A stretch of DNA of 64,000 bases from assembly GCA_029204225.1 (NCBI GenBank), contig MU832096.1, positions 1-64,000 of the forward strand, in the 5' to 3' direction. Position 1 is the first letter of the stretch; each line of letters starts with the position of its first letter. This stretch comes from Diphasiastrum complanatum (Eukaryota > Streptophyta > Lycopodiopsida > Lycopodiales > Lycopodiaceae). The notes under the pieces were generated by a model, which made no database searches, was not told the DNA's origin, and saw nothing but the letters and a program-made list of their open reading frames with translations. The position numbers and the translations under genes were made by a program. Shown here piece after piece: positions 3,094 to 64,000 of this stretch.

Positions 3094-3690
3094 AAGGATC
3101 GAGCATTTGAATCAACCTTGAAAATTAATAACGTGACTTTTATTCTTATGTGAGCATTCCCCACTGTTGGATTTATCTCGTCTACTCTCCTAAATCTCAT
3201 TTTAATCTCCTCCCTTCATGCTGCATTTTTACTCATGTTGTCGCACAGTCTACATATTTTACAAGTAAAATAAGATAGAAGAATAAAATGCGATTGTCTG
3301 CATAAATACAAGTAAATTCTCACAGGCAAATAAAAGATGAAAAAGACCGACACTGTGTTTTTACACGTGTTTATGTGACAGGCAAAAAAGACGACACTGT
3401 CTTACAAAATGCCGAAGGTGCCCTAGGAAAAGCAAAGGCACCCTATAAATCAAATCTAAGGCATTTCATCAGAGTGACGCATTTTTCGCATCTTCACCAA
3501 CGTTCATTTAAGCAAAGGCTGACGTCGCGACCTTTTCACGCTCATCCTATACACTTGTGCTAGCAGATTTGACAAGAACAGCAAGCCACCCACGATCTCT
3601 TACAAACAGCACATCCACTTTGTATTTTCTTCATCTGCACACCTGTAAAATTGTGTATATATATTGAATATCACTTGTGTACTCACATGA
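3094..3690. repeat. Insertion in element A, possible solo LTR
   Basis: Copia similarity stops at about 3093 and resumes at about 3700 with about 680 bp of expected integrase missing. The replacement begins near 3173 with TGTTGGATT, has a TATA-like CCCTATAAATC near 3430 and an ACACGTGT motif near 3366, and ends near CTCACA at 3690. These traits fit a solo LTR. I could not find a clear target duplication, so this stays tentative. Confidence 0.35.
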
Positions 3691-18477: not shown

Positions 18478-20752
18478 GTCCCTGCGCTGCCTAAATATCG
18501 GCCTCGGAAGCTCTCATATCAATTCTGCAGGGTATTTCGCTAAACGCATCTTTCTTGTGAACATAGATTTGACTACATCAGAGTGTAAACTCTGATTCAT
18601 CAATCCTCCTCTGTTCATAAGCACTCTGCTTTGGCTATTCAATCTAAAGAGGAGCTGAGACAAGCTTCTCAAACTGCCGATTGCATTAGAACGGCTACCG
18701 TTTTGTGGTGGCTAAATGCCCAGTTCCATCTGTGACGATCCAGCACCGAAAGGGGTAGGTATCACCTCTGTTAGCTAAGATCAGCACCCTATCTTCTTTC
18801 TGGCCTTCTCTATTTCATCATATGCGAATTCAGCTCCCGATGCATGAATTGGTGCTCAGAAAGAGCTCCGCAAAGCAAATCCCACATCATGATTCATCTT
18901 TACCATCATCAAGCAGCATGCTTTGCCTTCAAGTGAAAAACACAACCATTTCCACCATTTCCAGGATCAGCTCGGCCCATCTCCCGCCAACATCATTCAA
19001 ACTAACTACTGTCAATACACAAAACAACAACATTCTTTGCTGATGGTGATGATGATGCTTGCAGAATCGCCCACACGCAACGCAATCTTCGTGGGAATGA
19101 GCAATAATCACTTGTGTCATACACATTCCATTCTTGTGCATACATATTACATAATGACAAACTATCCTGTTCCTTTGTGTGTGTGTGTCACTTTTTGGCC
19201 TTGAAAGGGCCTGGCAAGTGCAACACGCAACACTCAACACTATGTCTGTGTATGACTCATTAATTGACTTGATGGTCAAGTTCATGTTCACGAGCTAGGT
19301 TGGTCAAGTCAAGCAATGTGCAATGTGTTAGGTTAGTCCAAGAATTTTGATGAAAAGTCAGCATCCAAGAGGAATACATTATAGGAGGGAGCCTTTTTCC
19401 CAATATTCCCTTGTGTAGCTGGGTCCCTCCCTCATTAGACGATGGTGGTGATCTAAAATGTGGAGTGATGATGGAGAGATCAAGCATTCCACACCACCTT
19501 TGGATGAAAGTGGGAGGGACCCAAACTCTCCCTTGGGGATAGGGGAATAAAGTCCAAAAGAATTTGATCTTTACTCTGTGTGACAAGAATGGTGAAGTGA
19601 TGGAGCAAGTGCACCTAGAGAGGATGTCTAGAGACTAGAAGTTATGTTTTCTTACCTCCCAAAAATAGTGGGACCCATTTCTAGATTTATGCAAATTCAA
19701 ATCTAGATATTGTGCACTTAGCTATCACCAAGTGGCCAATATGGATAAGGACATTTCTATTAACTTGGAACCAACTTAAGAGACATGACTACATATCATA
19801 ACTATTATTAACAACCTCCAGATTTTTTCACAGTGTATTTGGAGGAAGCCTTAAGGGGCACAAATTATCAGTGCTCACAGAGAACCGGCAAAGTCCTACA
19901 ACCAATCGGCTAGTTCTAAAATTATTGATTGATCTTGAAACAAGCAGGAAGCCAAAAGTCTAAAAACCAGCTAAAAATATGAGTAGTAGGAACTTACCTC
20001 CTTGATGCAAAAGTAGGAGGAAATTTTTTGGAATACTTTGACATATTTCATTTAGTCACTTACACTTTATGTTAACTTTTAAAAAGTATAGCATTAATCT
20101 TTGGATTTCTTTTGGCAAACTTATCTTGAAGTACTTCAAATTTATGCTTGTTATTGATGGTTGTAGACTATTTTAACTTTATACCAAGTTTCAAATTGCA
20201 CAAAATTAATTTCCTATAGAAATTTCAATAAACAATTTGCAAGTGCGCTTTTGAACTGACTGCAAAACCGACCAATTTTGAAAGTTGTAGGAACTTGGAG
20301 GTTGAAAAAGAAAAAAAAATGATTGATTTAAGAAACTGTAGAAGACCAACCGACTTGAAAAAAAAAGGAGCATGAGCACTGGGCACAATATTAGACCTGA
20401 AATCATTGTCACATGAATTCATGGAGCAATAAATGTGTAAGGGCCTATTACTATTTTTATATAGTCATAAAAGCACCTTACAATTTTGTAAGATTCACTT
20501 GTTATTTTAGAAAATTGTGATAATGGAGGTATCACTAGAAAAATTGACTTGGTCTAAATTTCAAACTTTCTATTTTTAGAAAGTCATAGGTATGATGCTC
20601 ACTACTTTTTTTTTTAAAGAAAAATAAAATCTGTTTGTTATCACGGCATGGGTTTCCCTACACTAAAGTAGGGGCTTTTGGTCCTTAGCCATGTACTATT
20701 ATTTCACATACCATTGTGGTCATAAAATGCTAAAGCTTCAATTTGCACAATG

Positions 20753-20754
<2 letters not shown>
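18478..20754. other. Upstream region of the XBAT31-like gene and intergenic DNA
   Basis: 5' leader and promoter of the minus-strand ligase gene should lie in the first kilobase or so. I found no clear TATA box or second gene. The GC content near 18480-18900 is higher than the AT-rich sequence beyond 19600. Nothing else can be supported. Confidence 0.45.
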
Positions 20755-20818
<64 letters not shown>

Positions 20819-20842
20819 TCACACACACACACACACACACAC
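20755..20842. repeat. (TG)n followed by (AC)n, a perfect foldback microsatellite
   Basis: About 28 TG dinucleotides run to a GCGTGTTTC hinge, then about 11 AC dinucleotides. The two tracts are complementary, so the strand can form a hairpin, and alternating purine-pyrimidine DNA can adopt Z-form. Confidence 0.9.
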
Positions 20843-21719
20843 AATTGCACATTTACAGTAAATCTACTTTTATTGCATATTGTGAGATGTTGACCATTAC
20901 ATGTCTATGGTTTCAGAAAACAAAGTTGATCATACAAATGGTTTGGGGTATCTAGATTTTGGCACATTTGAAATAGCTCAAACTTTATCCACAAATAGCT
21001 CATTGTCGATGTGAATCTAAGCTTTGTGGATATGCATTGTAGATGGTTGAATCTAAACATGACCTTCACATAGAAAGCTTGATTCTTTTGAATGCTGCTA
21101 GCTCATGTTAATCGTCTTATTTTGGCCAAACTGATGTGGTCTACACAATCGATTTGTAGATGACTTCTAACACTAAACAAGCTAAAAAATAAACAATAGT
21201 CTTTAGGAAACTTCCAAGCATCGAGTAGAGAGTTGATAGAAGACACTTGTGGCCATGGTTGAGATTTTTTTCTGTATGAGTTGTCTTTAAATTCTTGATC
21301 TTCATATGTTAATCATTGTGCTTTGAGAAAAAAATTTAATGCATTGACAATTGTCACTAAAATTGAGCACTAATTAGGCCATGAGAAATCTATGAGCTAG
21401 TGATTTGTTGTGTACTACTTAATTCTAATTTTAATATGGAAACCAAAGTAATAGCATTGTGAATTGCTTTGATGAGGTCTTTTTGTGTGCACTCTACTAA
21501 ATATGGAGTGAGGAAACCTAAGGTGAATCTTCACATCTTTGCATCCTCATCTTAAAAATATGGAGCAGGAGAAACTAAGAGCTCTCACGAAATCTTTGCT
21601 TGTTGAGTACGTCTATATATTATTCCATCTATTTACTTTATCAATTTTGAAATACTGGAGAAGTCATCGATGATCTTTCATGCAATATATGTCAACTAAT
21701 TCATAGGATGAGCCTCAAT
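20843..21719. other. Non-coding stretch
   Basis: AT-rich, no supported gene or repeat boundary. Confidence 0.4.
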
Positions 21720-22004: not shown

Positions 22005-22153
22005 CTTAAGTCCTAGTTTATTTACATACAAAAAGCTTTTATCTAAAAAAAACTCAAACTTAACGTTTAAAGCTTTAGTATGTCTGCTAGCTGAGCCCTT
22101 GTTCTACAATGCATTACATCTATTTTTTTAGGTAACAACTTTCTTCTAATAAA
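22005..22153 (-). pseudogene. Copia RNase H C-terminus and polypurine tract (3' part of a split element)
   Basis: The minus strand reads IRRKLLPKKIDVMHC, then AQLADIL, the usual end of copia RNase H, followed by a purine tract and the LTR. The upstream half of the same RNase H is at 31299-31770. A 9.1-kb DNA element separates them. One codon of the ADIxTKA motif region is lost. Confidence 0.8.
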
Positions 22154-22169
22154 AACATGATGACCAAAA

Positions 22170-22980
22170 AAAAGAGAAATGACTTGACGACCCATTTTTT
22201 TTTACATTTATTAATTTTTTTTAAAAAGTATCCAAATTTAAAATGCTTCAAATAAATATATTGTAATGGTAAAAAAATGTTGTATTTTGCAAGAAAATAA
22301 TTTAAGCTACAAAAATTTGGTAAATAGATTTTTATAAATAGCTTAAAATTAGCTTATATTAAATAATAATACTATTTAAAATAAAATCATTAGATACACA
22401 ACCACTAAAATACCTAAAAAATATTTTTTGCTTACTAAAAACAAAAGTTATAGTTTTTTTTTTTTGGAATTTTAAAAGTTTTCTAGATTACGATTCTTGT
22501 ATCGAAAAAAAATATTTTTTAAATTATGTTAAAAATTTGAATCAATATTTTTTGAAATTTTAAAATTTTAAAAATTTTTACTTACACCCACGTAAGTTTA
22601 TTAAATATTTAAACATTAAATAAACGCAAATAAAATTACTTTACAATAATCAAGATTAAATTATTTGTGATAATATTTAAATCACCCTGAAAAAAATCTA
22701 ATTTTTTTTTTCATTTCTTATAATTTGTAACAATATTTTTTTTACAAAAAATATTATAAAAACACATCTAGAATTAAAATATTGTAAACTTGACAAATCA
22801 TTACAATTTTAATTTTTTGTAATAATTATCAATGTTAAAATTTTTAAAATATTTCAAATTTTAAATTTTAAATCGTTAAAAAATAAATTTAAAAATAATA
22901 AATCAATAAAAAAAAGAATTCAAAACACAATACATCAAAAAATATAAACACAATTATTCTTTAAAACAAAAGAAAATTTT
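22170..22980. other. AT-rich left subterminal region of the DNA element
   Basis: About 800 bp of poly(A)/poly(T)-rich sequence between the left terminus and the stop codon of the methyltransferase-like gene. No gene. It would hold that gene's 3' untranslated region. Confidence 0.6.
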
Positions 22981-25900
22981 TTATTCCCAAAAATCATTGA
23001 TGTCATTTACATCTTTTTCTTTTGCTTTTTCTTGAGTAGCCACTGTACTATCAAGTGGCACCTCTTCTACAATTTCCTCGACTACGGTTACTACATTGTA
23101 ATCTTGAACCAAGACATTAGCAAATTCTCCTGTGTCGCCTACTTTTCCGCTAGCAGGAGGCTGAGGTTCCTTGGACAAGGGAATTATTGTATCCTCGTTG
23201 TCCAAACTCTTTCTCACCTCAGATAATTCATCTGACAAAATTGAAAGAGATTTTATTCTCATTTTTACAAAATCAATTAAATTAGTATCTAAATCTATTG
23301 TAGCAACATGTCTGTCTTTCTGAACAGCACATGCATTCATAGTGCTGTTACCGCTAAATAGATCTAAAACCCAATCAACTGGGTGAGAAAAAATATCAAT
23401 TAAATGATTAATTAATTATTGTGGATTTTAGTAGGGACAAGCCACGGAACCCGTCATTGGATTTTTTGGTTTCTTTGTCACAGTTGGATACTTGAACAAG
23501 TTTTCAAAACTTGTCAATCCGGAAGTGTTATAATGCAGCATCGAGCGTTTGCCATCCAAAGCATAATAACCAATGGTTATGTATTCTATTTTATTGCAAA
23601 GTCGAGCTCCTCCCCAGTTCCTGACATTGGGCTTGTACCTGACATGGAACATTTTAAGTAAAATCAATTTAAAATTTTAATTTTAAAATAAAAAATCTAA
23701 AATAAAATTATGAATTAAAATGCGAATTGATAATTCATGAACTTAAGAACTTACCACACAGCATTCTCAATTCCCGCATTACAGAAAGTTAGTAGAGCTT
23801 TCTGTACTGTTGCTGACTGCCAAGAAGAATGAAAAATAACAACTCTCCAAATTGGAAAAGTTTTGACTTCAAGAAAGCCCTGCATAAAACTATGGATTTT
23901 AGTGAATTTGAAAGGTGTATCATCATTTAATGATTCCTTCATCTGAAATCCATATGGTATATCGGCGATGCAGAGTGTATAAGGCCTTTTTCTTAAATTT
24001 TTTGAAATTTCTCTACAATCGCCCTCCTCAACAGAGTAAAAGCATGGTTGATCATCGACACTTTTGGGAAGGTAGGCCTTTAATGGATACTCCTCCGCAA
24101 TGGTCTCACCCCGTGCCAATCTCTCCATGTCCCTTTTTTCTAGTTTTGCCTTCAGAATATGTCTCTTGAATTGCTCTGGAAGGACTTTGTTTTTTTTTGT
24201 CTTTGGGAGACTGAAAAAAAAAAAAACTATGCTTAGCATGGGAGACAAAAAATATAAAATAGAATAGGAGACTTAACTTATCAAAAAATAATAATTAAAT
24301 AAAGAAAAAGCTATGCTTAGCAAAGGAGACATAGAATATAGAAAAGAAACAATTAATAAGCACCTATGCTAAGCATGGGTGAAATAAATACCATGTCTCT
24401 AAACAAAATAAAAAATGGACTCAGGGCTTTATTTCGGTTGCTCAAAGGATAAAGCCTCTGGCACTCATCGCAATCTTGACAATTTCCTGTCACGAGGGCT
24501 TCTTGAACTTTCATAAATAATTTGTGCCTGCATTCAAAAAAATATAATTGTTAAAAATCCAACCAAATTATGAAAATCATTTTATTAAAAAAGGTAACAT
24601 GAAAATAAATATTTAGATTATGATTATCACCTCTAAAATTCTTTTCTCATTTCTGCCAGGGAAAGGTGACCATCAGCAACTCTTGAAAGAACACTTATTA
24701 TTAGCTCTGAAGAGCTAATCCCTTGCATAGTCTTCCACTCTACTATTCCCATTTCAATAGGGATTGGATTCAGAGTTTGAGTGCTCACAACTTTTTTTTT
24801 TGGACTTTGAGGCACCCTGAGCAGGTTGGCCTTTTATTTGAAAAGTTTTCCACTTATCAAAAAATTTATCAACAAGGGCCCACACCTGAAATAAATAAAA
24901 AAAATAATTGATAAAGAATTTAACCAATATTAAGATTGAGTTCAAAATTTTAGTCTGATAAAAACAATCTAAAAAAATTATAACATATATTATGACCATA
25001 GCATTCCATGACAAGCATAGCCAAACAAATTACCTGGCCACTACGAAAAGCAAGCTGAAAAAAATTATCGTATTTAGTAAGGCTCTGCGTAGGATTTTTC
25101 GAATCAAAAGACAGGCTTGTCTCTTGAGCACATAGTGCTTTCAGCTCAAGTTGATTCACATCTCTTGCTTTGGAGACTCTCATGTATTCTTTGTGAAAAA
25201 AAACAAATTCTTTTATCACGGTCATCTTCATCCGGTAGTCCTGATCAATATTGTGGTCCCAAGCCAATAATTTCGCTTCTTCCACTGTCAGGCCAGCAAA
25301 TGCAATGGCACTTATAGTTCAAAAGCTTGGAATATGGGGATACTCTTGAGATAATTGTTTTTGAGCTTGTAAACTGTGTATCCCCCCAAGAACAAAAAAA
25401 TGATATAAATCTAATAAAGAAAAATCAAAATTTGCAACATCGTTGCATTCGTTGGGATCAACCAAAACAACAAAGGGAGTAACTATGGCCTGTGTATGAT
25501 CTTTAAATTTTATTTTTAAATTATGTACATGTGTTTCATTAGGCTCTCTAACTTTCATTGGCATGTCTCCTGTTATTGGGTCTACAGGTGGCCTATCACA
25601 CTGATTTATGTCTAAAATTAAAGTTGTTTCTTTTATTTTTTTTGTTTTATGGATATCCTTTCTTAATTTGGCAAATTCGAAATTGTCTTGTAATTTTCAG
25701 TAGAAGGGATGGACTTATGGCGATGTGTAGCCATGGTCTTTGGGCGTGACTTAGGTCTAGTGGACGAAGTCTCAGAAATATTATGAGACCTTTTTTTTGG
25801 GGATGAGGGACGGCTACGGTTTCATCCTCAACATTTTCAGAGGCCGGCTTTGTGACCTGAGCAGTGGTAGAAGCGGGCTTGCGAGGTCCAGTAGATACAC

Positions 25901-26497
25901 CTTTCGAACTCCGTAATGAATAGACCAAATTTTTTCTCTCAACAATAGCAGCTAAAACCATTTTTAAGCATTGCTTCATGCTCTGGACAGAAACAGAAAT
26001 CAAGTTTAAAATATAATGACTAAAAGCTTAAATCTAAAAGTTTAAATAATTTTATATCTAGTAACAACTATGCTAAGCATGAAACAAACATGATTAAAAA
26101 TATATTTTATAATTACTCACCAAAGTAACTAGAGCTTTATCAAAATAGGCTTTGATGGCCCCGTCCTGACAAAGTCGGATCTTTATCATAGTCTCGTTCA
26201 AAATGAAAATAGAACGAGACTTATCCGTCTCCTTTACAAGTATATTCACAAAACCTTCTTCTTGATTCTCATCTGGTTGATCAGTGAGCAATCTTCCTTG
26301 AACTTTGAATTGCGAGTCTCCTCTGCCAGGCTTCTCAGCTAAATGAATAGAAAGCTCCGAAAGCTTTGTGTTGTTGACCCCTTTGGTGAAATAGCACATG
26401 AATTTTTTCTTATCTTTTAACGGAATATCTTGAGGTTTCCCCGATATTTTAAAAGAAATCCTTGACATCTCAAAAATTATCAAAGGCAATTGAAAAT
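22981..26497 (-). pseudogene. ParB-like domain plus permuted amino-DNA methyltransferase, spliced, broken
   Basis: Probable exons on the minus strand: 26497-26121, 25982-25034, 24885-24631, 24537-24392, 24210-23755, 23638-about 23430, 23378-22981, mostly with clear GT-AG borders. The 5' end is unknown. The second exon holds a ParB-like core (YHFFVLGGIHSLQAQ; then LTVEEAKLLAWDHN). The fourth has Cys-rich CQDCDEC. The fifth has IADIPYGF, like motif IV (DPPY) of N4-cytosine/N6-adenine methyltransferases. The last has VLDLFSGNST, like the SAM-binding motif I, then ATIDLD. Motif IV before motif I is the beta-class order; ParB-methylase fusions are known in phages and bacteria. Breaks: an in-frame TGA near 25322, TAG near 24635, frame changes at A-runs near 25795 and 24795, unresolved sixth-exon donor. 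DIPY instead of DPPY may impair catalysis. Confidence 0.7.
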
Positions 26498-26697
26498 CTG
26501 CAAAAAAAAAGACTTTTTAGGAAAATTGGAAATGCTATCTTAATGAAAATGCTGAAAACTTTAATAAAACAACCCATTTTTGTGAAAAAAAAAATTAAAA
26601 AACAAAACTACAAATTCAACATATTTTCTTACTAAAACATCTCAAAAGGATCACTTTTCTGAGACAAAGCGTTGTAAAACAAGAAAATACGAGTAAC

Positions 26698-27152
26698 GAC
26701 CTATGCTGAGCATAGGTTGTGGTCGAGTCCTTACTAACAACTTATGCTTAGCATAGGACGGAGGGTGGATTCTTCAATTCTAACCTCCTTTCGACCTATG
26801 CTGAGCATAGCTTTCATCTCTGGTCCTGTTCCAACCTATACTCAACATAGGTTAGCAAGCAAATTGCGAAGACATCCTATGCTCAGCATAGGTCATTACT
26901 CGCGCGCTCTTGTCCAACCTATGCTGAGCATAGGATGTCTTCGCTATTTGCTTGCTAACCTATGCTAAGCATAGGTTGGAAGAGGACCAGAGATGCAACC
27001 TATGCTCAACATAGGTCGAACCGTGGTAAGAATAAAGAAATAACGTCGGAATCCTATGCTGAGCATAGGATATTACTAAGGACCCGAGCACAACCTATGC
27101 TCGGCATAGGTTAAAGGAGAGGATTGGTGCAGGCACCTATGCTGAGCATAGA
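26698..27152. repeat. Cluster of eleven CCTATGCTGAGCATAGG palindromes, partly in a ~100-bp-arm cruciform
   Basis: Near-perfect palindromes sit at about 26698, 26741, 26794, 26833, 26874, 26916, 26957, 26997, 27052, 27092 and 27134, spaced about 40-55 bp. Arms 26790-26893 and 26916-27018 are also inverted copies of each other, including the unique spacers. At least seven weaker copies lie outside the cluster (24228, 24311, 24361, 26068, 27221, 27701, 27771), all inside the element. The cluster is upstream of both divergent genes, so it may bind the transposase or a regulator. That role is inference. Confidence 0.85.
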
Positions 27153-27816
27153 TTACCCATGTTGCAAGAAGATGAATACAAATTAAAATATGAATATTTT
27201 CTTATGCAAGAATTTATTACCCATGCTAAGCATAAAGCAAAGCTAGAAAATGACAATAATCTTACTGTCAAAAAATCTGGAAGCGAGAACGTATGCGAAA
27301 TCTTATAGAAAGCCGTGACTTGGTCGTAGCGATTGCTTTGGCAGCATGTGGGCTTCTGAATTCGCAAATGAGGTGAGTTATGCTTGGACCATGGTCCCTA
27401 AATAATTTTTTTTTCGAGACCCCCGTCTCACGCCAGTCCTCCAGCTTACTTCAGGACCAAGTTGTCGCGACTCACCTCACCCCACGCCGACCTCGAGTAT
27501 TAGTCCAAACAGTCCAAACCTAACCCTAAACCTAAACCTAAACCTAACCCTAACCCTAAGAATGCTGCCAAACAGTATTCAAGGCATGGTAGCCGCCGTA
27601 AATTTTTATTAACCAATTACTTTTTAGGCTTGTTGCTCATTTGCATTTAGTTGGTTTTTCTGTGTACATCTATTGAGGTTCGCATAGGTTTTTATTTGTT
27701 CTATGACTAGCATAGGTTGCAGTTATGTTTGAGGAGCACATTTAGTGTGGTGTTAACTATTTGAACGGTTCTATGCTTAGCATAAGTACGTAGTTAAAAA
27801 ATAATTTGAGGCTACG
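27153..27816. promoter_or_regulatory. Putative bidirectional promoter region of the DNA element
   Basis: The spacer between the divergent gene remnants. It includes a GC-rich patch (27415-27500), the telomere-like tract, and further copies of the CTATGCTTAGCATA palindrome. No clear TATA box could be fixed. An upstream exon of the minus-strand gene could also lie here. Confidence 0.4.
27516..27560. repeat. Interstitial telomere-like tract
   Basis: About seven degenerate units of CCTAAA/CCCTAA, related to the plant telomere repeat CCCTAAA (telo-box). It lies between the two divergent genes. Telo-boxes occur in many plant promoters; a relic of telomere addition is the alternative. Confidence 0.8.
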
Positions 27817-30800
27817 ATGTCAAGTAGTTCTACCTCTTCTATTCCAGTAGTTGTAACTCAATATGTTGCAACAAGTGCAACATCTTCATCTAACATTCCC
27901 AATGAAAGTTTTTTTTATAAAGCCACTCATGAATCTGAACATATTTTGGTAAACGATGTGGCATCATCATCATTTACCCGTTCATCATCTAAAATTTCTC
28001 GAGAAAGTACTTTTCAAGAAATGACGTCTGTAACTCAACTTGTATCAAATCTTTCGACCTCATCCTCCTCTTCAGATACAGGCTCGGCACAACTAGAACA
28101 TTGTTCTCTTGAACAAGTTGAATCATTGAGTGATGAGTCAAAAGCTTCAGTTCACTCAGTTACTGATTCTAGTAAATCAACAGATCCACGTAAGTTTGTT
28201 GATCCGCGACGTTCAAGTTTTTCTCATGTTCGTAGGAGACCTTCTCAAAGTAATGTTCGTCGTGTTAAATCTAAAGGGCTATATTTGTTGAAAATTTAGA
28301 GCCTTCTGAGGGTCATGAACATCTTGGGGTTGGAGCCAGAATTCCCAGTCATGAAATTCCAACACCTTCTCAGCCAGTTCAAGCACCTACTAGTGTCACA
28401 GGTTCAATTTATAGATCAGACTCCAAACAAAAAGAAAAATACAAGAGAGACTTGAGATCCTCACCTGATTTAACGAATCGTCAAAAATAGTTGATTACAA
28501 AATCTGAGATTCGAAAGGTACGAAATATTATTTGCTGCTCATCCTGTTATTTGCAAAAGCTGAGTATCAGAGAAATTGAAGAATTAAAATCAAACTTCTT
28601 TTTACGAAGTAAGGATGAGAGAAATTACTATTTGTGTGCAATAGTGAGGCTGGACAAAAATTCATTTTTGTATTTTTTAAATGCTTTGGAGGTTTGTCGC
28701 AAAGCTTACAAAGCAATTCACACAATCGGAAACGCACGGCTTCAACGAATGCATGCATGACTTCAGAAAGACCCAACATTACGGGAATCCTTACAGGGTT
28801 GAACTGTTTCTCCAAATGCTTTAAATGCAACTGCTTGGCTAAAGCATTTCATAGATGTGCACGGAGAAAAATTGTCTAATTCCTTATATTTTCACTTGTC
28901 GAAAATTTTACAAAATTAGAAATATTTTTTATTTACAAAGAGTTTGCAAAAATAAAAAATGTTCCCTATTTGAGTTACTTATATTTTCTTAGAATTTGAA
29001 AAAGAGATTTTGGACTGGTAAAGATTCTCAAAAAATCATGAATGACAGTATGCTCCACTTGCAAGTTGTTAAAGTCTGCAAAACAACTTGCAAAGACCAA
29101 TGACGAGAAAGGTAAATATTAATCAAATTTGTCATTCATTTTAATACTTTCTGTTTTGAAAAAATTTATGTTGCAGTTTTTTTGAACACCATTATGTTGC
29201 AGTCTTTTGAACACCATTATGGTATGATCTTTATTTTATTAAATAGAGATCAACAAACAGTTGAAAGACAAAAGTTGGCCAAGCATCAAAAGAAATGTTT
29301 GGAATGTCCACAAAAATATCTGGGACTTGTTATTGATGGCATGGATCAGAAGAAAACAATGTTGTCTCATTTTGTCAGAGTGCCCAAAAATTTGAACAAG
29401 GCAGATTTTATTCAGGTTCATCTCGTTGGAGCACTTGTGTTTAATGGCACTTTGGAGTCCAAGGTCTTTTTTAATTATCCCAATGTTCGAAATGATCCAA
29501 ATTTGACGATCACCATTGTACATAAGATAATGTGCGAATTTGGTGAAAATCTTCCAAAAATACTTTATTTGCAGCTTGACAACACTGCTAGGGAAAATAA
29601 AAATCAAACTGTTTTGGCATACTTGTCTATGCTAGTTGTAAAAATTTCAAAAAAGTAAAAATAGGATTTTTGTTGGTAGGACATACCCACGGTCAAATTG
29701 ATCAAATGTTTAGTAGCTTTTCTAAGAGGTTGAGACGCAAGAAAGCATTTTCATTACCAGTGCTTCAAAGCATTGTTGAGGAATCGTATGTGCCAAAGCC
29801 AAACGTGTCATTTATCAAACACACATATGATATTCGTGATTATGATGCGTCCAATGAAACAGAGCGATGCGTAGCTAATATTAATGATATTAGCTTTCAA
29901 CACTAGTTTAAAATCAAATGTAACGAATCAGACATTATATTATTATGGGGCAAACTATTTTCAAATTCAGTTTCGTGGTTACCTCTTGAAGGAGTTCGAT
30001 TTTTGCTTAACATTCCATCGACTCAAATCAAGCTTGTTGTGTTGTCTTCCTTGAAGTCCTTGCTAGAAGAACAAAAGGCGCAAAGAGAACATCGTGAGAT
30101 TGATCCATTTGCCTCATTAAATTTTTTGGAATCAAGTATTCAAGCAGCTTATCATTTTTTTTGATGAGTTTGATCAGCATTGGTGGATGGACCTTTTCGA
30201 GGAACAAAAAATCAGTTTGCTCAATCTCGAACATACATCAACAACTGATGAATTTCATTGGCCTCATAAATTAGGAACATCAACTACGATTGTCAAACCT
30301 TCAGATCTTCCTCGAGATAATGATTTCCTGCAGCTTGTGCAAGGTGAGGAACGTGAAATTTATGTGGGCTCAAGGAAGAATAGGCAAAGTGTAAAAGTTG
30401 CAAAAATGAAATGGCGCGGTGATTTGAATGAAATCCAAATTGGAAGCCTTGTTGCACTTCTAGCTTCAGAAAACAATGAAGGACATCCATTTTGGATTGC
30501 CAAAGTACTTGGTTTTATTCAAAATAACAATCAAACAAAAGTACTATGTGTCCATTGGTTGCGCACCACTTCAACAAATGCTTTTTTGGGAAGGTACGAA
30601 CTCGAAATGTTGCAAGTAGATCCAAAGGGCAAGAGAAAGAGATTGCCAAAAAATCAACCAAGAGTCGACGATTTGAATCTACAGGATGTAGATGTTTTGG
30701 CATTTAATTTTGAATTAACAATGACCAATCATCTACGAAAGTCAACAATATCTATATTGAAAGAACGACTTGGATTACTTGAAAAACCATTATCCTCCAC

Positions 30801-30996
30801 TCGTCATCAACAGAGAAAAGCTGATTTACAAGATTTTTTGTCAACATTAGATGCGGATTTTGAGGAAGACATGCCAGTTGACTCTGATGAAGAAGACGGG
30901 TCTTCCACTTCATCAGCTGAAAACGAGAGTGTTGAGAATATGTCAAGTTCTGAATTGAGAGGCATCAGTGAAAATTCCTTAGAAAATGTACTTTAA
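27817..30996 (+). pseudogene. DDE/RNase H-fold transposase-like gene with C-terminal reader-like domain, frame-broken
   Basis: Pieces in order: a Ser-rich N-terminus (27817-28299, ATG 27817); a segment with ICCSSC and VCRKAYKAI-like motifs (28491-28757); an intron (29112-29176, GT...TTGCAG); then the core. Core motifs are LVIDGMDQ (about 29326), LQLDNTARENKNQ (about 29572) and VGHTHGQIDQMF (about 29673), a D-D-D pattern with the GHTH signature that I associate with the DUF7869 family, probable RNase H-fold nucleases. After a WLPLEGVRFLL stretch (29970-30006), the last frame (30187-30996) holds an SLVALL...PFWIAKVLG...VHWL domain resembling chromo/BAH-like readers, and an acidic tail. Frame changes lie near 29650 (A-run) and 30160 (T-run), with further stops at 28298, 28488 and 29904. 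Family naming is from memory and unverified. Confidence 0.7.
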
Positions 30997-31298
30997 AAAA
31001 AAGAATGTGCAAATATAATTTAAGTTATTTTGTATTTCAATGGGATTTTGAGTTTCAAAAATCATTTGTTCTCTTGAATTATTATTTCATTTGTAATTAT
31101 GATGGTTTTATGAAGTTTGCAACAAAAAACTTTTAGTTCTTTATATAAAATATGTATTTTTTTTGCTTTTTTTAAAAACAAAATTTAGAGATTTATTAAA
31201 AAAATCCATGATTTTGGCCTTAAACTAGGACCATTAAAAAACACCAAAAAAGATTACTCTTTTTCATGTCAAAGTCCCAAAACAAATGTCATCGTGTT

Positions 31299-31770
31299 TA
31301 AAATGATATTTATTTTCTATATGCTTCATGTGTGCATGAAATACAATATTCTTAACTAGTTGAATAGCACTTTGGCTTTCACACCTGATTACTGTAGGCT
31401 TACTTTGCAAGATGCCAATGTAATTACATTATTGTTCTAGCCATATTGCCTCTTGTGTAGCTGAACATAGGGCTTTGTAATTTGCTTATGTTGTAAAAAG
31501 AGCAACTTTTTCTTGTTTCTTGCTAGACCAAGAAAATACACCATTGCCAACATAAAAAATATAACTAGTGGTGGATCATCTATCGTCCATACAGCCTACC
31601 CAATCTGAATCAATGAAGCCCTATAAAACTAATAAAGCTTGTTGTCTATCATACGACATTGTTAGAGATTTTGGGCGAGTAAAATCCCTTGATGCATCAT
31701 TTGTGCGACGCATATTGAATCAAATCATGATGGCGAGTCAAAATGACATGACTGATTCTACTTGATTATG
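31299..31770 (-). pseudogene. Copia RNase H, 5' part of the split antisense element
   Basis: The minus strand reads DSDWVGCMDD, then SWSSKKQEKVAL, then a damaged SxAEYKA region with a stop, SAIQLVKN, and HAHMKHIENKYHF at the breakpoint. It continues at 22149 after removal of the DNA element. Two or more stops show that the copia copy was already, or has since become, inactive. Confidence 0.8.
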
Positions 31771-32965
31771 ACTTCAAAGTTGTTAGAATCGATAGGTTCG
31801 ATTACGTAGACAAACACCCGGTAGGTGGGGGGTATGTGGGAGGTTAACCACCATTGAAATTAGTGCATGATCGAAGGGGACTGTATAGTCATGCCCTATA
31901 TGGATCACGGTAAAATGATCAACGTGGAAGGTGAAAAAGGCCCTCTGGACTACAAAAAGGTCCTACATGAGAGGTACGTCCATCGTGTCTAAGCCTGTGA
32001 CAGTCAAAACTGCTAGGCCACCATTAGTGCAAAGAGTTGTGAGCTCTTGCTCTGTAAGCATGGGCATGATGGTGTGTTGCAATGGTGCATGAGCAACAGG
32101 GGATCGACGGATAGATCGGAGAGAAGTCTCTCTCTCCTCTCGGCTACGGGAAGTGGATGTGGTCGGTGATGAGGACTGGTTTGCTGGGACGAGGATGGTG
32201 AGTGGTCGTTCGGGATGATGAGGTGGGGCTCGAAGAATGGCTAGGACTAGATGGTGGGGCGGTGCTCCTGGTGAGTCTGACTCATTGTCCAGGGGAAGGA
32301 GACTCGTTGTCCAGGGGAAGGAGAGTCGTTTGAAAGTCGATGTTTCAATGCCATGTAGGCAATCAGGGGTTATTTCAAGGTAGGAGGGTCAAAGAAAAAA
32401 ATGGAAGCTATAGATGAGTTAAAAAGGCTAATAGCGAGTTAGGACAAGTAAATGACTTATGGTAAGTAAATGGATGACGGCGAGTAAGGGCGAGTAAAGG
32501 GAAATGGTGGAAAATGAGTTCAGGAGGCTGCTGGACTAATGGCGAGTAAAGTGGATGGGGGATGGGCGAGAAACACAGATGGCGAGTAAAAGGTTCTGTG
32601 CACGAGTTAGGATGAGTAAATGAAAACGGTGAAAAATGGTGCGTGAAAGGTGCGGGCCTGATGGCAAATAAGCTATTCTTCTCTTTCCATTCTTGAATAT
32701 CTTTGCATGTTGTTTCATAATTTAAATGCCAAGCTTGGCCTAGAAAAAACTCAAGCTATATGGGTTTCTCAAGTCTAGTTAGTAGTATACAACTTGCATA
32801 TAGATTATAGACTTAGAAATGTGATTAATATGCTTGTAAAAACTTGTGGAATATCACATGCAATGGTTGTAAGTGATCCATAGTGACATGCAAGGCATGC
32901 ACAAAGTGAAATCGACACATGCATGATGATTTGTACAATTCTAGTTGGAAAAATGACACTTGGTG
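31771..32965. other. Non-coding stretch with degenerate GGCGAGTAAA repeats
   Basis: No supported gene. Between about 32410 and 32690 the motif GGCGAGTAA(A/G) and variants recur at least six times at irregular spacing. GTTGTCCAGGGGAAGGAGA occurs twice near 32285-32330. Earlier sequence (31800-32250) is GC-richer than its surroundings and unassigned. Confidence 0.45.
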
Positions 32966-33265
32966 TAGGGATCAAGTTATTACTTCACGACTTACATCAC
33001 ACTCAGTTCAATGCTACTACCATTCTATGTAACTACTTGAGCTGTATTTCACTGTCACTAAATCCCAGATTTCATGGCAAATCCAGGCACATAGAAATCC
33101 AGTATCACTTCATTCGGCAGAAAGTTTTCTTAGGGCAAGTGATCCTCTAATACTGCTCCACAACAGAAATGGTCGCAGACATCTTCACCAAAGCGCTTCC
33201 CAGGATCAAGCAACAGAAGTTCTTCAACATGCTGAACCTGACGAAGATACCAAGGCACCAACTGT
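32966..33265 (+). pseudogene. Copia RNase H C-terminus (3' end of an element upstream of LTR D)
   Basis: The translation reads HDLHHTQFNATTILC, IEIQYHFIRQKVF, a TAA near 33150, TTEMVADIFTKALPR, and a tail, followed by the purine tract TTAAGGGGGAC and the LTR. It closely matches the minus-strand copy at 51848-52140. Everything upstream of about 32966 is lost. Confidence 0.85.
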
Positions 33266-33280
33266 GACCTTAAGGGGGAC

Positions 33281-34361
33281 TGTTGAAAATTAAGCCCACA
33301 ATTGTCTCCTTGGTGAATCATAACTTAGGCAGCCAACAATTTGAAGAACGTCTACAACGAGCTTTTGGCTGATCTCCAGCAAAGGGTAACCAATCCTATT
33401 ATAATTTCAAGTTCAGATGTTAAGTTTAGTAACTTGAAGACATTCAAGACTTGGCCATCTTCAAGGACTTCCACAAACTTGCATTCAGAACAAGTCTGCA
33501 AATTTACATTACTTTTTGAACAGTCTGCAGAAATACACTAAGTGTCACGCAGTTCGCATTTTTTGCACTTTCCCAAAAACTGCGAAACTTGTCTTCGACT
33601 TCTTCCGTTCAACTATTTTGAAGAAGTCAACTTGTTCACAGTTCAACAATTTAACTATTTTCAACACCTTCGGCTTTTTCACATTTTCTCAAATAATACA
33701 AAGAAAGATGAATTCCAGAAGGTCCTCTATTTTTAAGGGTTAAACTATTAAATACACCTGTGCCAATTTTCTAAGGGCACTTTAAACTTGTTTACAGCAC
33801 CTTCACCTTTTTTGCAAAATCCCAAAGAGAGAGAAAAATGTCGAAGGTCGTCTATTCTGAATGAGGTACGTTCCCATGTCACTTCCCAAAATTTGCGAAG
33901 TGAGAGAATTTACGACGTCCTCGTCAGCGTCAACGATCCTGATTTGTTGACCGTATATACTATGTACAATTGTCACAAAGCCATATGCTTCCAAGTACAA
34001 CGACTTTCCTAATTAGGTGACAATCATTCAATGTAATACATGGATGAAATCTATAAATAGATCATCCAAGCACAGATAATTGGTTGCTCAGTCCATGAGA
34101 CACATTATTTGAGCCTCCCAGTTACACCGTCATTCTTGGTTGTAATTGTTATTTGTATTGTGCTTCAGTGTAATATAGTAGTAGCTGAATTAATTTTTAA
34201 AATCTTGTTGGACAATCAAAACGCATAAAGTGATTATCTTTAGCATAAGTTGTCAATTAGATTGGTTTTGCACCTAGCAGCCGATTAGGACGGGAGAGCT
34301 ATTCCGCAATATTCATGCTCTCTTCTCCGTTCTTGTTCTTCCTATCTCTCTTGCCCCATCA
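33281..34361 (+). repeat. LTR of copia family D/E (1081 bp)
   Basis: Starts TGTTGAAAATTAAGCCC after a polypurine tract and ends GCCCCATCA before a primer binding site. A TATA-like CTATAAATAG lies at 34051-34060. Since RNase H precedes it and gag follows it, one LTR joins the tail of one element to the head of another. The minus-strand counterpart at 50459-51834 is about 300 bp longer. Confidence 0.85.
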
Positions 34362-50458: not shown

Positions 50459-51834
50459 TGATGGGGCAAGGGAGATAACAAGAACGAGAACGGAGAAGAG
50501 AGCAGGAATATTGCGGAATAGCTCTCCCGTTCAAATCGGTTGCTAGGTGCAAAACCAGTCTAATTGATAGCTTATGCTAAAGATAATCACAGCTTTATGT
50601 GTTTTGATTGTCCAACAAGATGTTAAAAATTAACTCATACTCTAAAACAAGAGTACAGTCCACCAAAGAGATTGGAGATGATTTGTGTGTGGTACAATTG
50701 AAATCAGATTCAACGTGAAGTATAGTTCTGAAATATATGGAAGAGCAGTATGATATCGCGAGTTCCTCAGGCGTCAAATACAGCCATCGTCTGATCAAAA
50801 ACTGAGGAGTCGTAGATGTCCGTGTTCTGATCAGAGTGAGTATACAAGCACGATCAAACAACAATGAAAGTGCATTCAATCACAACATGCAATCATCTAT
50901 GTAGTACACAAATAAAAACAAGTTGTTGCTATATTACACTGAAGTACAATACAAATCACAATTACAACAAAAAATGACGATGTAATTGGGAGGCTCAAAT
51001 AATACGTCTCATGGATGAAACAACCAATAATCTGTGCTTGGATGGTCTATTTATAGATTTCATTCGTGTAATAATTACATTGAATTATTGTCACCTAATT
51101 AGGAAAGCTGTTGTACTTGGAAGCATATGGCTTTGTGACAACTATACATAGTGTATACGGTCAACAAATCAGGATCGTTGACGTGGACAAGGATGTCACA
51201 AATTCTCTCACTTCGCAAATTTCGGGAAGTGACATGGGAACGTACCTCGTTCAGAATAGACGACCTTCGGCATTTTTTTTTCTCTTTGGAATTTTGTGAA
51301 AAAGTCGAAGGTGTTGTAAACAAGTTTAAAGTGCCCTTAGAAAATTGGCGAAGGTGCCTTTAACAGTATAACCCTTAGAAATAGAGGACCTTCTGGAATT
51401 CATCTTTTTTTGTATTTTTTGGAAAAATGCAAAAAAGCCGAAGGTGTTGAAAATAGTTAAACTATTGAACTGTGTACAAGTTGACTTCTTCAAAATAGTT
51501 GAACGAAAGAAGTTGAAGACAAGTTTCGCAATTTTCGGGAAGGAAAGTGCAGAAAATACGAACTGCGTGACACTTAGTGTATTTTTGCAAATTGTTCAAA
51601 AAGTAATGTAAATCTGTAGACTTGTTCTAAATGCAAGTTTGTGGAAGTCCTTGAAGATGGCCAAGTCTTCAATGTCTTCAAGTTACTAAACTTAACATCT
51701 GAACTTAAAATTATAATAGGATTGGTTACCCTTTGTTGGAGATCAGCCGAAATCTCGTTGTAGACGTTATTCAAATTATTGGCTACCTAAGTTATGATTC
51801 ACCAAGGAGACAACTGTGGGCTTGATTTCCAACA
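50459..51834 (-). repeat. Shared LTR between copia E1 and E2 (1376 bp)
   Basis: On the minus strand it starts TGTTGGAAATCAAGCCC after AAGGGGAC and ends GCCCCATCA. TATA-like CTATAAATAG is at 51056-51047. RNase H precedes it and gag follows it, so it served as 3' LTR for one element and 5' LTR for the next. Homologous to 33281-34361. Confidence 0.85.
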
Positions 51835-51847
51835 GTCCCCTTGAAGA

Positions 51848-54800
51848 TCACGGTCGGTGCCTTGGTATCTTCGTTAGGTTCAGCATGCTGAAGAACTTCT
51901 GATGCTTGATCCTAGGAAGCGCTTTGGTGAAGTTGTCTGCGACCATTTCTGTTGTGGAGTAGTATTGAAGGATCACTTGCCTTGAGAAAACTTTCTCCCG
52001 AATGAAGTGATACTGGATTTCTATGATTTTGGATTTGCCATAAAATTTGAGATTCAGTGACAGTGAAATACAGCTCAACTTGTCACACAGAATGGTGGTA
52101 GCATTGAACTGAGTGTGATATAAGTCGTGAAATAATAACCTGATCCATACAGCTTCTTTTGAAGCTTGACATGCTGCAATGTACTTTGCCTCAGTCGAAG
52201 AAAGCGCAACAAATTTCTGCTTCATTGAGTTCCACGAAATCAGTCCCCCTGCCAGATAGAAATAGAACCCGAAGGTAGGTTTTTAGTAGAAATTGTTTTT
52301 GCCCAATCTGAGTCGGAATAGTCTCCCAGGATGAGTGGGTTGATAGCATTTTCATCATAAGATAAGATGTGATCTAAACTTCCTTGAATATATCTAATCA
52401 CTCTCTTCAACGCTTTCCAATGAGATATCTTGGGATTAGACATGAATTGACTTAACGTGAGATATCTTGGGATTAGACATGAATTGACTTAACATGCTAA
52501 CAGTGTATGCTAAATCTGGTCTAGTACATAACATTGCATACATTAGAGATCCAATTAGTGAATGATTAGAGTACTTCGCTATGTCGAGTATTTCACTATC
52601 AGTCTCAGCACAAGAAGGTTTAGTCAATACTATACTTGGATCCATTGGGGTATCAATTGGTTTGCAATTAGACATATGAAACTTTTCTAAAATGCCTTAT
52701 AGATATGCCTACTGGCTAAGATAGATTTTCTTCTGAAGTCTATTTCTAGTAATGTGAATTCTTACAAAGAATGAACAGATCCTAAATCATTCATGTCAAA
52801 TTCCTTTGACAGATCACTCTTAGTAGTGTGTAGTAGAGAAGTGTCGTTAGATTAAATAGTTGCATCATCTACATAAAGAGCTATGTGAACTAAATTGGTG
52901 CCTATATGCTTTGAATAAACATTACAGTCAGCTGAATTGTTTGCAAATCCCAATTGAATGAGATAAGAGTTGATTCTATCGAACCATGCTCTTGCGGCCT
53001 ATTTCAGACCGTAGATTGCTTTGTGTAGCTTGCACACTTTGTGCTCTTGGCCTTTGACTTCGAATCCTTCCGGTTGGAAATGTACAACTCCTCTTCAACG
53101 TTGTCGTTGAGAAATGCTATCTTGACATCCATTTGGTGCATTTCGAGGTCTTTCGCGGCAACTAACCAAATCAGAATCCCAATTGACTGTCTCTTGACAA
53201 CAGGACTAAAAATTTATAGGTAATCCACTCCTTGGACTTGAGTGAATCCTTTAGCCACCAGACATGCTTTCTATTTGGCAATGGAACCATCAGAGTTTAT
53301 CTTCTTCTTGAAGATCCACTTGTTGTCGATAACTCTCTTGTCAGTGAAGAAGTCGACCAGTGTCTAGGTCTGATTCGTCAAAAGTGAGCTATACTCGCCT
53401 TCCATAGCTTCTTGCCACTACCCAGCATCCTTGGAGTTAATTGCTTCGGCTAGGCTTTCTGGTTCTTCTGATGAAGTCCAGAATGATTGAGGTGCATACC
53501 TCTCCAAAACTGTCCAAGTCCATGAGGATCTATGAATGTTGGGTTGACCAGGATGCACTGATTCTTCTTCTTGAAATTCTCCAGATCTGCTCGAGCTTGT
53601 TTGGTTTGATATGGTGACAGGCTCTGTTTGTTGCTCGGCTTCTGTAGCCGTAGCTACAGGCTTTGTAGAAGAATCCATTGGGATATCAATTGCTTTGCAA
53701 TCAGACATATGAAACTTTTCTAAAATGCCTTTTAGATATGCATGCTGGCTAAGATAGATCTTCTTCTAAAGTCTATTTCTAGTAGTGTGAAAGTCTAGCA
53801 AAGAATGAACAGTTCCTAAATTAGTCATGTCAAATTCCTTTGACAGATCACTCTTAGTAGTGTGCAGTAGAGAAGTGTCGTTAGATAGAATAAATGTGTC
53901 ATCTATGTAAAGAGATATGTGAACTGAATTGGTGCCTATATGCTTTGAATAAACATTACAGTCAACTGAATTGTTTGCAAATTCCATTTGAATGAAATAA
54001 GAGTTGATTGTATCGGACCATGCTCTTGGAGCATGTTTCAGACCGTAGATTGCTTTGTGCATCTTGCACACTTTGTGCTCTTGGCCTTTGACTTTGAATC
54101 CTTTCAGATGGAAGGTGTACAGTTCCTCTTCGACGTTGCTATTGAGAAATGTTGTCTTGACATCCATTTGGTGCATTTCGAGGTCTTTCGTGGCTGCTAA
54201 CCCACAAAGTCCTGATTGACTGTATCTTGATGATAGGATTGGAAATTTCTTGGTAATCCACTCATTGGACTTGAGTGAATCCTTTATCCACCAGCCGTGC
54301 TTTCCATTTGGCAATGGAACCTTCAGAGTTGATCTTTTTCTTGAAGATCCACTTGTTGTCGATAACTCTCTTTTGAGTGAAGTCAACCAGTGTCCAGGTC
54401 TGATTCGTCAAAAGTGAGTTGTATTTCCATAGCTTCTTGCCACTTCACAACATCCTTGGAGTTAATTGCTTCGGCTAGGCTTTCTGGTTCTTCTAATGAA
54501 GTCCAAAATGATTGAGGTGCATACTTCTCCAAAACTGTCCGAGTCCATGAGGATCTACGAATGTTGGGTTGACCAGGATGCGCTGATTCTTCTTCTTGAA
54601 ACTCTCCAGATCTGCTCGAGCTTGTTTGGTCTGGTCTGGTGACAGGCTCTGTTTGTTGCTCGGCTTCTGTAGCCGTAGCTACAGGCTTTGTAGAAGAATC
54701 CATTGGGGTATCAATTGCTTTGCAATCAGACATATGAAACTTTTCTAAAATGCCTTTTAGATATGCATGCTGGCTAAGATAGATCTTCTTCTAAAGTCTA

Positions 54801-63100: not shown

Positions 63101-64000
63101 GATCATTCACTTTACTTTAGAATTAGTGCTAATGATGTTACAATCCTTCTAATTTATGTGGATGACATTATTTTAAGTGGAGGGAACAAGGAAGATATAG
63201 AAGATATCAAGAAAGCACTAAAAAAGGAATTTGAAGTGCATGATCTTGGTCTTTTGAGCTATATCTTAGGAATAGAAGTAATTAGAACTTCTCAAATCAC
63301 TTTTATTTCACAAGAGAAGTATGCTATTTCTATTCTCAATAGATTTCATATGGTAGATGCAAATCCTATTGATACACCTATGGAATCACATGTAAAGCTA
63401 ACTATAAGAGGTAATGAAAGATCCTTCGAGGACATTACTCTCTATAGGAAGCTAATAGGTTCTCTTATATATCTAACCATCACAAGACCTGATTTATCTT
63501 ATTGTGTTGGTAGATTAAGCCAATTCATGCAAGATCCTAGCATAGAACATTGGAAACTAGGAAAGAGGATCTTGAGATACATCTCGGGAACAAAAGATTT
63601 TGGCATTGTTTATAGAGGCTCATCACCTAACTTATTTGGTTTTTCAGATTCAGATTTTGCAGGAGACCTTATGGATAGAAAATCCATAAATGCACATGCT
63701 ATTTTCATAGGTGATGGAGCTATCTCATGGATGTCGAAGAAACAAGCAACTATATCACTTTCTTCTAGTGAGGCCGAGTACAAAGCTTTGACATCATGCA
63801 CAAAGGAGATGGTGTGGATCAAGAGGATGATTATGGAGCTTCATTTGCTGGATTTTTCAGAGAGTCCAATCATCTTTTGTGACAACCTTTCAGCCCAAAG
63901 TCTAGCAAGCAATCCGGTTTTCCATGCAAGGAGCAAACATATCGAGGTGGCTTACCATTTTGTGAGAGAACAAGTGTTGGCAAAAGAGATCAAGCTTGAA
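60182..64000 (+). CDS. Intact copia gag-pol polyprotein, element F (runs off the window)
   Basis: One frame from ATG 60182 stays open for 1273 codons to the last base, so the stop lies outside. It encodes capsid, protease, integrase, reverse transcriptase and RNase H as one polyprotein. Landmarks: gag start MATNGGYMLESNDRL; CCHC knuckle CFYCGVKGHFASDC at about 245; protease WWIDSGATSH (Asp306); integrase zinc region ending CEECALSKSHR; integrase Asp503, Asp565 and Glu601 (DD35E spacing); reverse transcriptase YVDD (Asp994, Asp995); RNase H SSSEAEYKAL (about 1197) and HARSKHIEVAYHFVREQ near the end. All catalytic residues I looked for are present. One oddity is FINDFSR where FIDDYSR is usual, not a catalytic site. 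A similar but decayed relative is element A. Confidence 0.95.
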   Translation, partial: MATNGGYMLESNDRLTSLNYSTWKVRMESLLEMNELMDIVVGVEERPLAPQEQLRYDKRAKKALHMIKMNVTNELIKEVGKCTSSSEAWEALKKVYESKSTSRVLTLRRQIFSCMQKKSENGHAFVLRVKALNDELACINDGINNEELVQVILNGLLDDHANLVQSYAIQKCLPSVGDLQEVLLAEEFRLQARVGASSTSQGGEEEAMFSKGKFKGKGKSNWSKGQDQGEHSTFGKKKDRSKLKCFYCGVKGHFASDCFKKKRDQGEKQTNLTIDEGGDELLSNDAFVMSSCLLANHGDIDPWWIDSGATSHMTYHKEYFSSLMAFDGDRKVIYTANDGECAIKGIGTIPISLSTNRNIELKDVLLIPSITKNLLSVSQMLDKGFKVEFDGDACLIKKGCSIIAKGKRQGKLFKLDACVVANQVGCMANEQMSIQEVWHKRMGHLNYKALEVIAKKEVVRGLPKSLTCLNHVCEECALSKSHRLPYTRSISRSKMPFSLLHSDIHGVTTISNGGAKMYVTFINDFSRFCWVYLLKSKDEVFDVFVKFKVAIETQFTTKIKCLRSDNGGEYISNKFKAFFDEHGIKREYTCPRTPQQNGVAERKNRTLCESAKAMRLNANLPKPFWSDALLCANFLCNRWPSVVLEGKTPFEALFGTKPNVKFLRTFGCICYFNITLDDRTKEDPSSRKGIFVGYSEVSKAYRIYVPSIKKVFTSRDVIFDESNIPKVVSSDDGVVATNVLDDNGVDDTLDVDVEEASSSQIPRRTPRHKVKPSRLTYDGKGKQVVDGSNYAFLTSFDVPSCVDEARQKEEWIQAMDLEFEALMKNNTWRLVELPKGKSAIGCKWIFKVKTNQDGSINKFKARLVAKGYAQEHGIDYEETFAPVAKMVSIRVIISLATLYGWDLWQLDISNAFLNGDLEEEVYMEQPESYVSHSKPNHVCFLQKSLYGLKQAPRSWYARLNSFLLSQNFTMSEYDHSLYFRISANDVTILLIYVDDIILSGGNKEDIEDIKKALKKEFEVHDLGLLSYILGIEVIRTSQITFISQEKYAISILNRFHMVDANPIDTPMESHVKLTIRGNERSFEDITLYRKLIGSLIYLTITRPDLSYCVGRLSQFMQDPSIEHWKLGKRILRYISGTKDFGIVYRGSSPNLFGFSDSDFAGDLMDRKSINAHAIFIGDGAISWMSKKQATISLSSSEAEYKALTSCTKEMVWIKRMIMELHLLDFSESPIIFCDNLSAQSLASNPVFHARSKHIEVAYHFVREQVLAKEIKLE

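Follow-up and report, generated by a model that had tools for sequence, protein, structure and literature searches.

A decayed two-gene DNA transposon in Diphasiastrum complanatum with a DUF7869 transposase, a permuted DNA methyltransferase and an intergenic palindrome array

The window, i.e., the entire 64,000-nucleotide stretch of Diphasiastrum complanatum DNA that was analysed, contains a 9,145-bp DNA transposon (22154-31298) inside a copia RNase H gene. This element represents a cut-and-paste DNA transposon of two genes in a decayed state: a transposase gene and a methyltransferase (MT) gene, both bearing stops or frameshifts, stand head to head with a palindrome array in their shared promoter region. 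The best explanation of the whole, to which we give an even chance, is a two-gene transposon whose MT binds the array and methylates the element there. The following features delimit the element:

22150 to 22153, no strand: left copy of the target-site duplication (TSD) TAAA, 4 bp; empty site in frame
22154 to 22164, plus strand: left terminal inverted repeat (TIR) AACATGATGAC, pairing with the right end at 10 of 11 positions
31288 to 31298, minus strand: right TIR, partner of the left TIR (10/11 match)
31299 to 31302, no strand: right copy of the TSD TAAA, 4 bp; copia alignments run across the junction

A 9.1-kb insert with 11-bp TIRs and a target duplication had been predicted from the sequence, and its coordinates proved exact, with a TIR match of 10/11 and a TSD of 4 bp. 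One TIR-plus-TSD pair of this kind was found around the ends (1 kb × 1 kb). Shuffled pairs of the AT-rich flanks (n = 60) yielded a mean of 0.23 such pairs over the same area, and the termini alone were therefore rejected as proof of an element. As pairs of this kind are not rare in AT-rich flanks, the empty site was tested. Removal of the element and one TSD copy restored a minus-strand frame across the junction that encodes copia RNase H (KHIENKYHF on one side, IRRKLL on the other). The interrupted copia copy is old and has two stops elsewhere. Four copia stretches of the window aligned across the junction (36561-36247, 53%; 63683-63991, 41%; 33004-33186, 39%; 52276-51935, 37%) and, together with the in-frame empty site, established the boundaries of the element. 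A search of the junction peptide against Pfam gave no copia match, and one against plasmid records gave two copia matches of 31%. A copia segment at 32964-33300 recurs in opposite orientation at 51815-52151 (90%).

The transposase gene comprises the following features:

27817 to 30996, plus strand: decayed transposase gene containing DUF7869; aspartates of the D-D-D core at 29344, 29578 and 29700
30331 to 30774, plus strand: C-terminal part of the transposase, matching the BAH-like region (residues 681-796) in the P0005 model

DUF7869 (PF25273) was the only Pfam family above cut-off for the transposase and matched it as two segments (E 4.7e-21 and 2.3e-22; 75.7 and 80 bits; cut-off 26). The aspartates of GMDQ, QLDN and IDQ were invariant in the 41 of 96 relatives that were aligned, and all three are present in the window. 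These results bore out the D-D-D transposase-like core of the original prediction and indicated, at the level of sequence, that the transposase carries the three putative catalytic acidic residues of DDE/D transposases, in a putative RNase H-like fold. Its predicted model showed likeness to Mos1 and integrases and has helical N-terminal parts. A PDB sequence search with the transposase returned chance-level xylanases alone (E 0.8-0.9). Three scans of viral contigs, with P0018, A3 and A4, gave no confirmed relative. The 96 DUF7869 relatives were obtained by scoring the 8000 candidates sharing most words; among the matches listed, the closest transposase from a named plant was that of the fern Adiantum nelumboides (56% identity over 48% of the query). 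Two relatives, P0024 (Adiantum) and P0067 (Riccia), are annotated as proteins in which DUF7869 is joined to an integrase of retroviral type or to a cellulase domain; these fusions probably reflect annotation running across neighbouring genes.

The MT gene was divided into exons whose limits are our own reading of the sequence:

22984 to 26468, minus strand: MT gene, several exons, decayed, with stops and one frameshift
25029 to 25690, minus strand: MT exon carrying GGxH and DHNxD, the motifs of the 'ParB-like' region, and interrupted by a single stop
23754 to 24212, minus strand: MT exon with motif IV; ADIPYG at 23969-23950
22984 to 23415, minus strand: end of the MT with motif I (VLDLFSGNST, from 23370 downwards); PF01555

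The window MT matched PF01555 with 27.6 bits (cut-off 26.7), as did an exon from one of the related loci described below (L017, 31.1 bits). Motif IV (ADIPYGF) lies ahead of motif I, as in four phage methylases. The amino-methyltransferase was thus confirmed in its permuted form, and motif content identifies the MT as a predicted permuted beta-class N6A/N4C DNA methyltransferase. The 'ParB-like' exon shared 46-51% identity over ca. 165 residues with P0099 and with related loci where compared. A Pfam search of the MT proteins gave no ParB match, and DUF6551 matches in P0100 and L015 were below cut-off. Profile-profile comparison (hhalign) of the MT with six phage ParB proteins was not significant (Prob ~0.2%, two trials); GGxH and DHNxD were in register with ParB in one of the two comparisons. 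The ParB-like label of the original prediction, drawn from motifs only, is the least secure part of the identification. The predicted structure of the MT had a pLDDT of 36. A PDB sequence search with the MT profile returned nothing, and a search of PHROGs with its N-terminal part returned a single match of no use (E 0.19). When phages were searched by tblastn with P0098, 45 records matched, the best 15 of the 45 covering the methylase end only.

A scan of prokaryote genomes identified eight contigs (L011-L018; CAKZGI010000142.1 and others), all from a single 'uncultured Trichormus' metagenome-assembled genome. Azolla ferns harbour Trichormus azollae as their cyanobacterial symbiont, as stated in the available text of PMC12362246, and the MT genes on inspected contigs contain introns, mostly GT-AG. 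Based on this symbiosis and the intron-bearing genes, the contigs were taken to be, probably, mis-binned Azolla fern DNA. In five of the eight loci (L012, L015, L016, L017, and L018), both genes were found head to head, one on each strand, with 5' end turned towards 5' end; the other three (L011, L013, and L014) are short contigs carrying the MT gene alone. The refuting case, in which other copies would have the two genes between different termini, was checked on these loci and did not hold; most of their ends start with AACA(C/T)G. Transposase frames were open (858-866 codons) in 4/4 loci tested. MT exon 1 was stop-free in 6/8 loci (partial in L017); L014 has three stops there, and L016 a single one close to the start. 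ADIPYG was kept in all eight, and the intron behind motif IV has the same position in the window and the related loci. L017 is an internal-deletion copy that has lost the array and the 5' portions of both genes, which now abut at 3511-3517; its transposase match is split in two pieces. In L016, a second C-terminal transposase fragment (398-766) lies beside the full-length gene.

Ends in the related loci were located by means of conserved blocks together with a pattern. Seven of the ten ends read start AACAYG, a share that leans towards the search pattern because that pattern was partly used to read them; both ends of L015 and that of L014 are off by one base each. The window ends likewise start AACA(C/T)G. 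No 11-bp TIRs accompanied by a 4-bp TSD were detected when L012, L015, and L017 were searched for them. Among the three contigs with both ends, a 4-bp duplication was seen in L012 (TGTT), with no match in L015 and L017.

Between the two genes of the window element, and at a few sites in or near them, the following palindromes were found:

26700 to 27152, no strand: array of 11 palindromes of 17 bp, consensus CCTATGCTNAGCATAGG; starts at 26700, 26741, 26795, 26835, 26876, 26918, 26959, 26999, 27053, 27094 and 27136
26699 to 27111, no strand: imperfect inverted repeat of 413 bp that includes 10 of the 11 array palindromes
24226 to 24379, no strand: three further palindromes in an MT intron (24226, 24310, 24363), 1-4 mismatches
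26067, 27220, 27700 and 27770, no strand: other outlying palindromes, 1-4 mismatches

At ≤2 mismatches, CCTATGCTNAGCATAGG occurred 15 times in the element and nowhere else in the window; at 3-4 mismatches, it occurred three times in the element and six times outside. The related loci have, in the same intergenic place, a 17-bp palindrome TCGATGCNNNGCATCGA in 2 to 15 copies (6/8 loci). At ≤3 mismatches, 45 copies lay between the genes, as bounded by tblastn matches, vs 2 in the remaining 51 kb of the eight loci. The common core ATGCnnnGCAT has 14 exact matches inside the element and one in the remainder of the window, and is also present in 6/8 loci. No array was found in L011, which has 162 bp upstream, or in L017, which has lost the intergenic region.

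Palindromes in the window array are spaced by 40-42 or 54 bp. Over all 49 spacings (31, 40-43, 50-54, 63, and 72 bp), the distances lay close to integer multiples of 10.5 bp (R 0.79), a value reached by 0 of 5000 null sets. Growth of arrays by duplication makes the spacings interdependent; when the test was restricted to the 11 distinct values, an R as high as that observed was reached in 0.16% of null sets. Copies in the window array are also not independent, as they lie partly within the inverted repeat, which matches its own reverse complement at 344/418 aligned positions. In the arms of this repeat, palindromes were better kept than spacers (74/80 vs 89/111, p 0.022). Spacing by whole helical turns would be expected if bound proteins were lined up along the same side of the DNA. 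The array, which the original prediction did not include, is the best clue to the target of the MT or the transposase.

Subterminal repeats serve as transposase binding sites in other transposons. The array could accordingly be an internal binding site of the transposase itself, with the MT acting mainly elsewhere, e.g., at the ends. Palindromes that also adjoin the transposase start (27136-27770) and the helical N-terminal parts of its model are in line with such binding. The seven palindromes outside the array are situated in MT introns or ahead of the transposase gene. The four array-like ones in MT introns (by our exon limits) and the absence of array-type palindromes from both ends of the element speak against binding by the transposase. 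This alternative was judged unlikely. Operators, too, are often palindromic, and the array occupies a region common to divergent genes. It might thus be a mere promoter operator balancing both genes while the MT acts in trans, countering silencing by the host or modifying host DNA in general. As 2 to 15 phased copies exceed the needs of a simple operator, this alternative was considered distinctly improbable.

Sequence comparison of the related loci indicated purifying selection on both genes. For the MT exons, pN was 0.03-0.22 and pS 0.59-0.93 (exon 1 from 6/8 loci, the motif IV exon from 5/8 and the next exon from 4/8). For the transposase, pN was 0.10-0.18 and pS 0.54-0.73 (4/5 loci; the broken L017 gene was left out). 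Synonymous sites were near saturation, with dS beyond correction in 25/31 MT pairs, while pN was low in the MT exons, like that of the transposase, which argues that the MT is kept by selection. Among 5.8 billion proteins, four relatives of the MT were found, two of them from the liverwort Riccia sorocarpa. One of these, R1sor_010796, has a locus tag consecutive with that of a DUF7869 gene, R1sor_010795, and the contigs recorded for the two are equal in length. For the second, R1sor_003872, no DUF7869 neighbour by tag was seen among the 96 matches.

In a tree of 90/96 transposase relatives and the window, which carries long-branch warnings, R1sor_010795 formed a small clade with R1sor_019130 and one more row, apart from a Riccia expansion of 21 rows. 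The window transposase grouped with Adiantum in a different clade, and that of L015 (P0031) with Ceratopteris in a third; all three lie inside one 68-row clade (100/100). The separate positions of the three paired transposases imply that the pairing is old or arose more than once. By itself, the window copy would be compatible with unrelated genes joined by chance or by nested insertion, the MT being passenger cargo, as would the second Riccia MT gene for which no neighbour was seen. Recurrence of the pair in five loci and in Riccia, the common palindrome core and selection on both genes make that a very remote prospect. Since this layout is shared by related copies, the MT appears to function within the element rather than being carried along in it.

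ParB proteins recognise parS sites, which are palindromic. In the preferred reading, methylation by the MT of its own element, the MT protein would bind the array as side-by-side dimers, through either its ParB-like part or the region that follows, and would methylate the element at the array, on the amino group of adenine (N6) or cytosine (N4). The methylation state could then govern the divergent promoters and access of the transposase, so that, for example, freshly replicated, hemimethylated copies would be favoured or host silencing kept off. Timing of transposition and evasion of silencing, the roles suggested for the enzyme in the original prediction, are candidate functions. This reading is supported by the gene pair in 5/8 loci and the Riccia tags, constraint on the MT and retention of motif IV in all related loci. 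Concentration of palindromes between the genes, their common core, the 10.5-bp phasing and parS binding also support it, as do phage ParB-methylase fusions and the self-modification proposal of PMC12477816. Counted against it were the motif-based ParB support, the low pLDDT of the MT model, the transposase as an alternative binder of the array, the lack of an array in L011 and L017, the lack of a 4-bp duplication in L015 and L017, R1sor_003872 without a tagged neighbour and the location of palindromes partly in an inverted repeat. In land plants, the AMT1 pathway of adenine methylation has reportedly been lost. That a ParB-like MT recognises a parS-like phased array in land plants and writes m6A/m4C as a private epigenetic mark controlling transposition is a tentative proposal, with chances somewhat short of even.

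Sola1 transposons, a candidate affiliation of the element, generate a 4-bp target duplication; one of that length was observed for the window (TAAA) and L012 (TGTT), and none for L015 and L017. Fungal KDZ transposons resemble the window element as DNA transposons bearing a DNA-modifying enzyme; they differ in their transposase and in their chemistry, oxidation of methylcytosine. Their TET/JBP genes are cited in the available text of PMC12477816. The same text describes Sola1-1_Ec32 of Ectocarpus, a DNA transposon with, as in the window, a ParB plus N4C/N6A methyltransferase gene (1104 aa) on the strand opposite the transposase, and suggests that algal ParB-methyltransferases modify their own transposon. 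In contrast to the 9.1-kb window element, Sola1-1_Ec32 is from a brown alga and 21.5 kb long, and that text mentions no palindrome array. PMC12477816 also cites similar accessory proteins from transposons of green and red algae (Iyer 2011; Petroll 2025) and refers to the giant red-algal elements as EnSpm. The original prediction of an undescribed class was thus not supported in a wide sense, as ParB-methyltransferase transposons were already reported from algae. Sola2 has 4-bp AT-rich target duplications (PMC3627910, available text), and Sola1 is listed for Physcomitrella (PMC9033089, available text).

Giant-virus Mariner elements also combine a transposase with a methyltransferase; in the available text of PMC3627910, they have a Mariner transposase, an endonuclease and Methyltransf_26 or a C5 methylase, with ParB unmentioned. 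Fusions of ParB to N6_N4 methylases, the domain pair predicted for the window MT, are frequent in phages (PMC12704722); these are phage or prophage proteins, and the available text mentions no plant, alga or transposon. A literature search (mostly open-access, without preprints) gave no land-plant ParB-methyltransferase element or array among the matches listed and nothing on DUF7869. No report was thus found of the land-plant host, the DUF7869 transposase or the palindrome array. The role of transposon-borne methyltransferases has been raised without an answer for algal and viral elements (PMC12477816 and PMC3627910, available text). With the conserved array as a concrete 17-bp test substrate, this role becomes directly testable, and open copies for such tests are available in the related contigs.

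Two simple repeats were also observed: a CA/GT microsatellite left of the element (20704-20955), seen as TH/CV repeats in translations, and telomere-like CCCTAAA-type units inside it, upstream of the transposase start (27519-27559).
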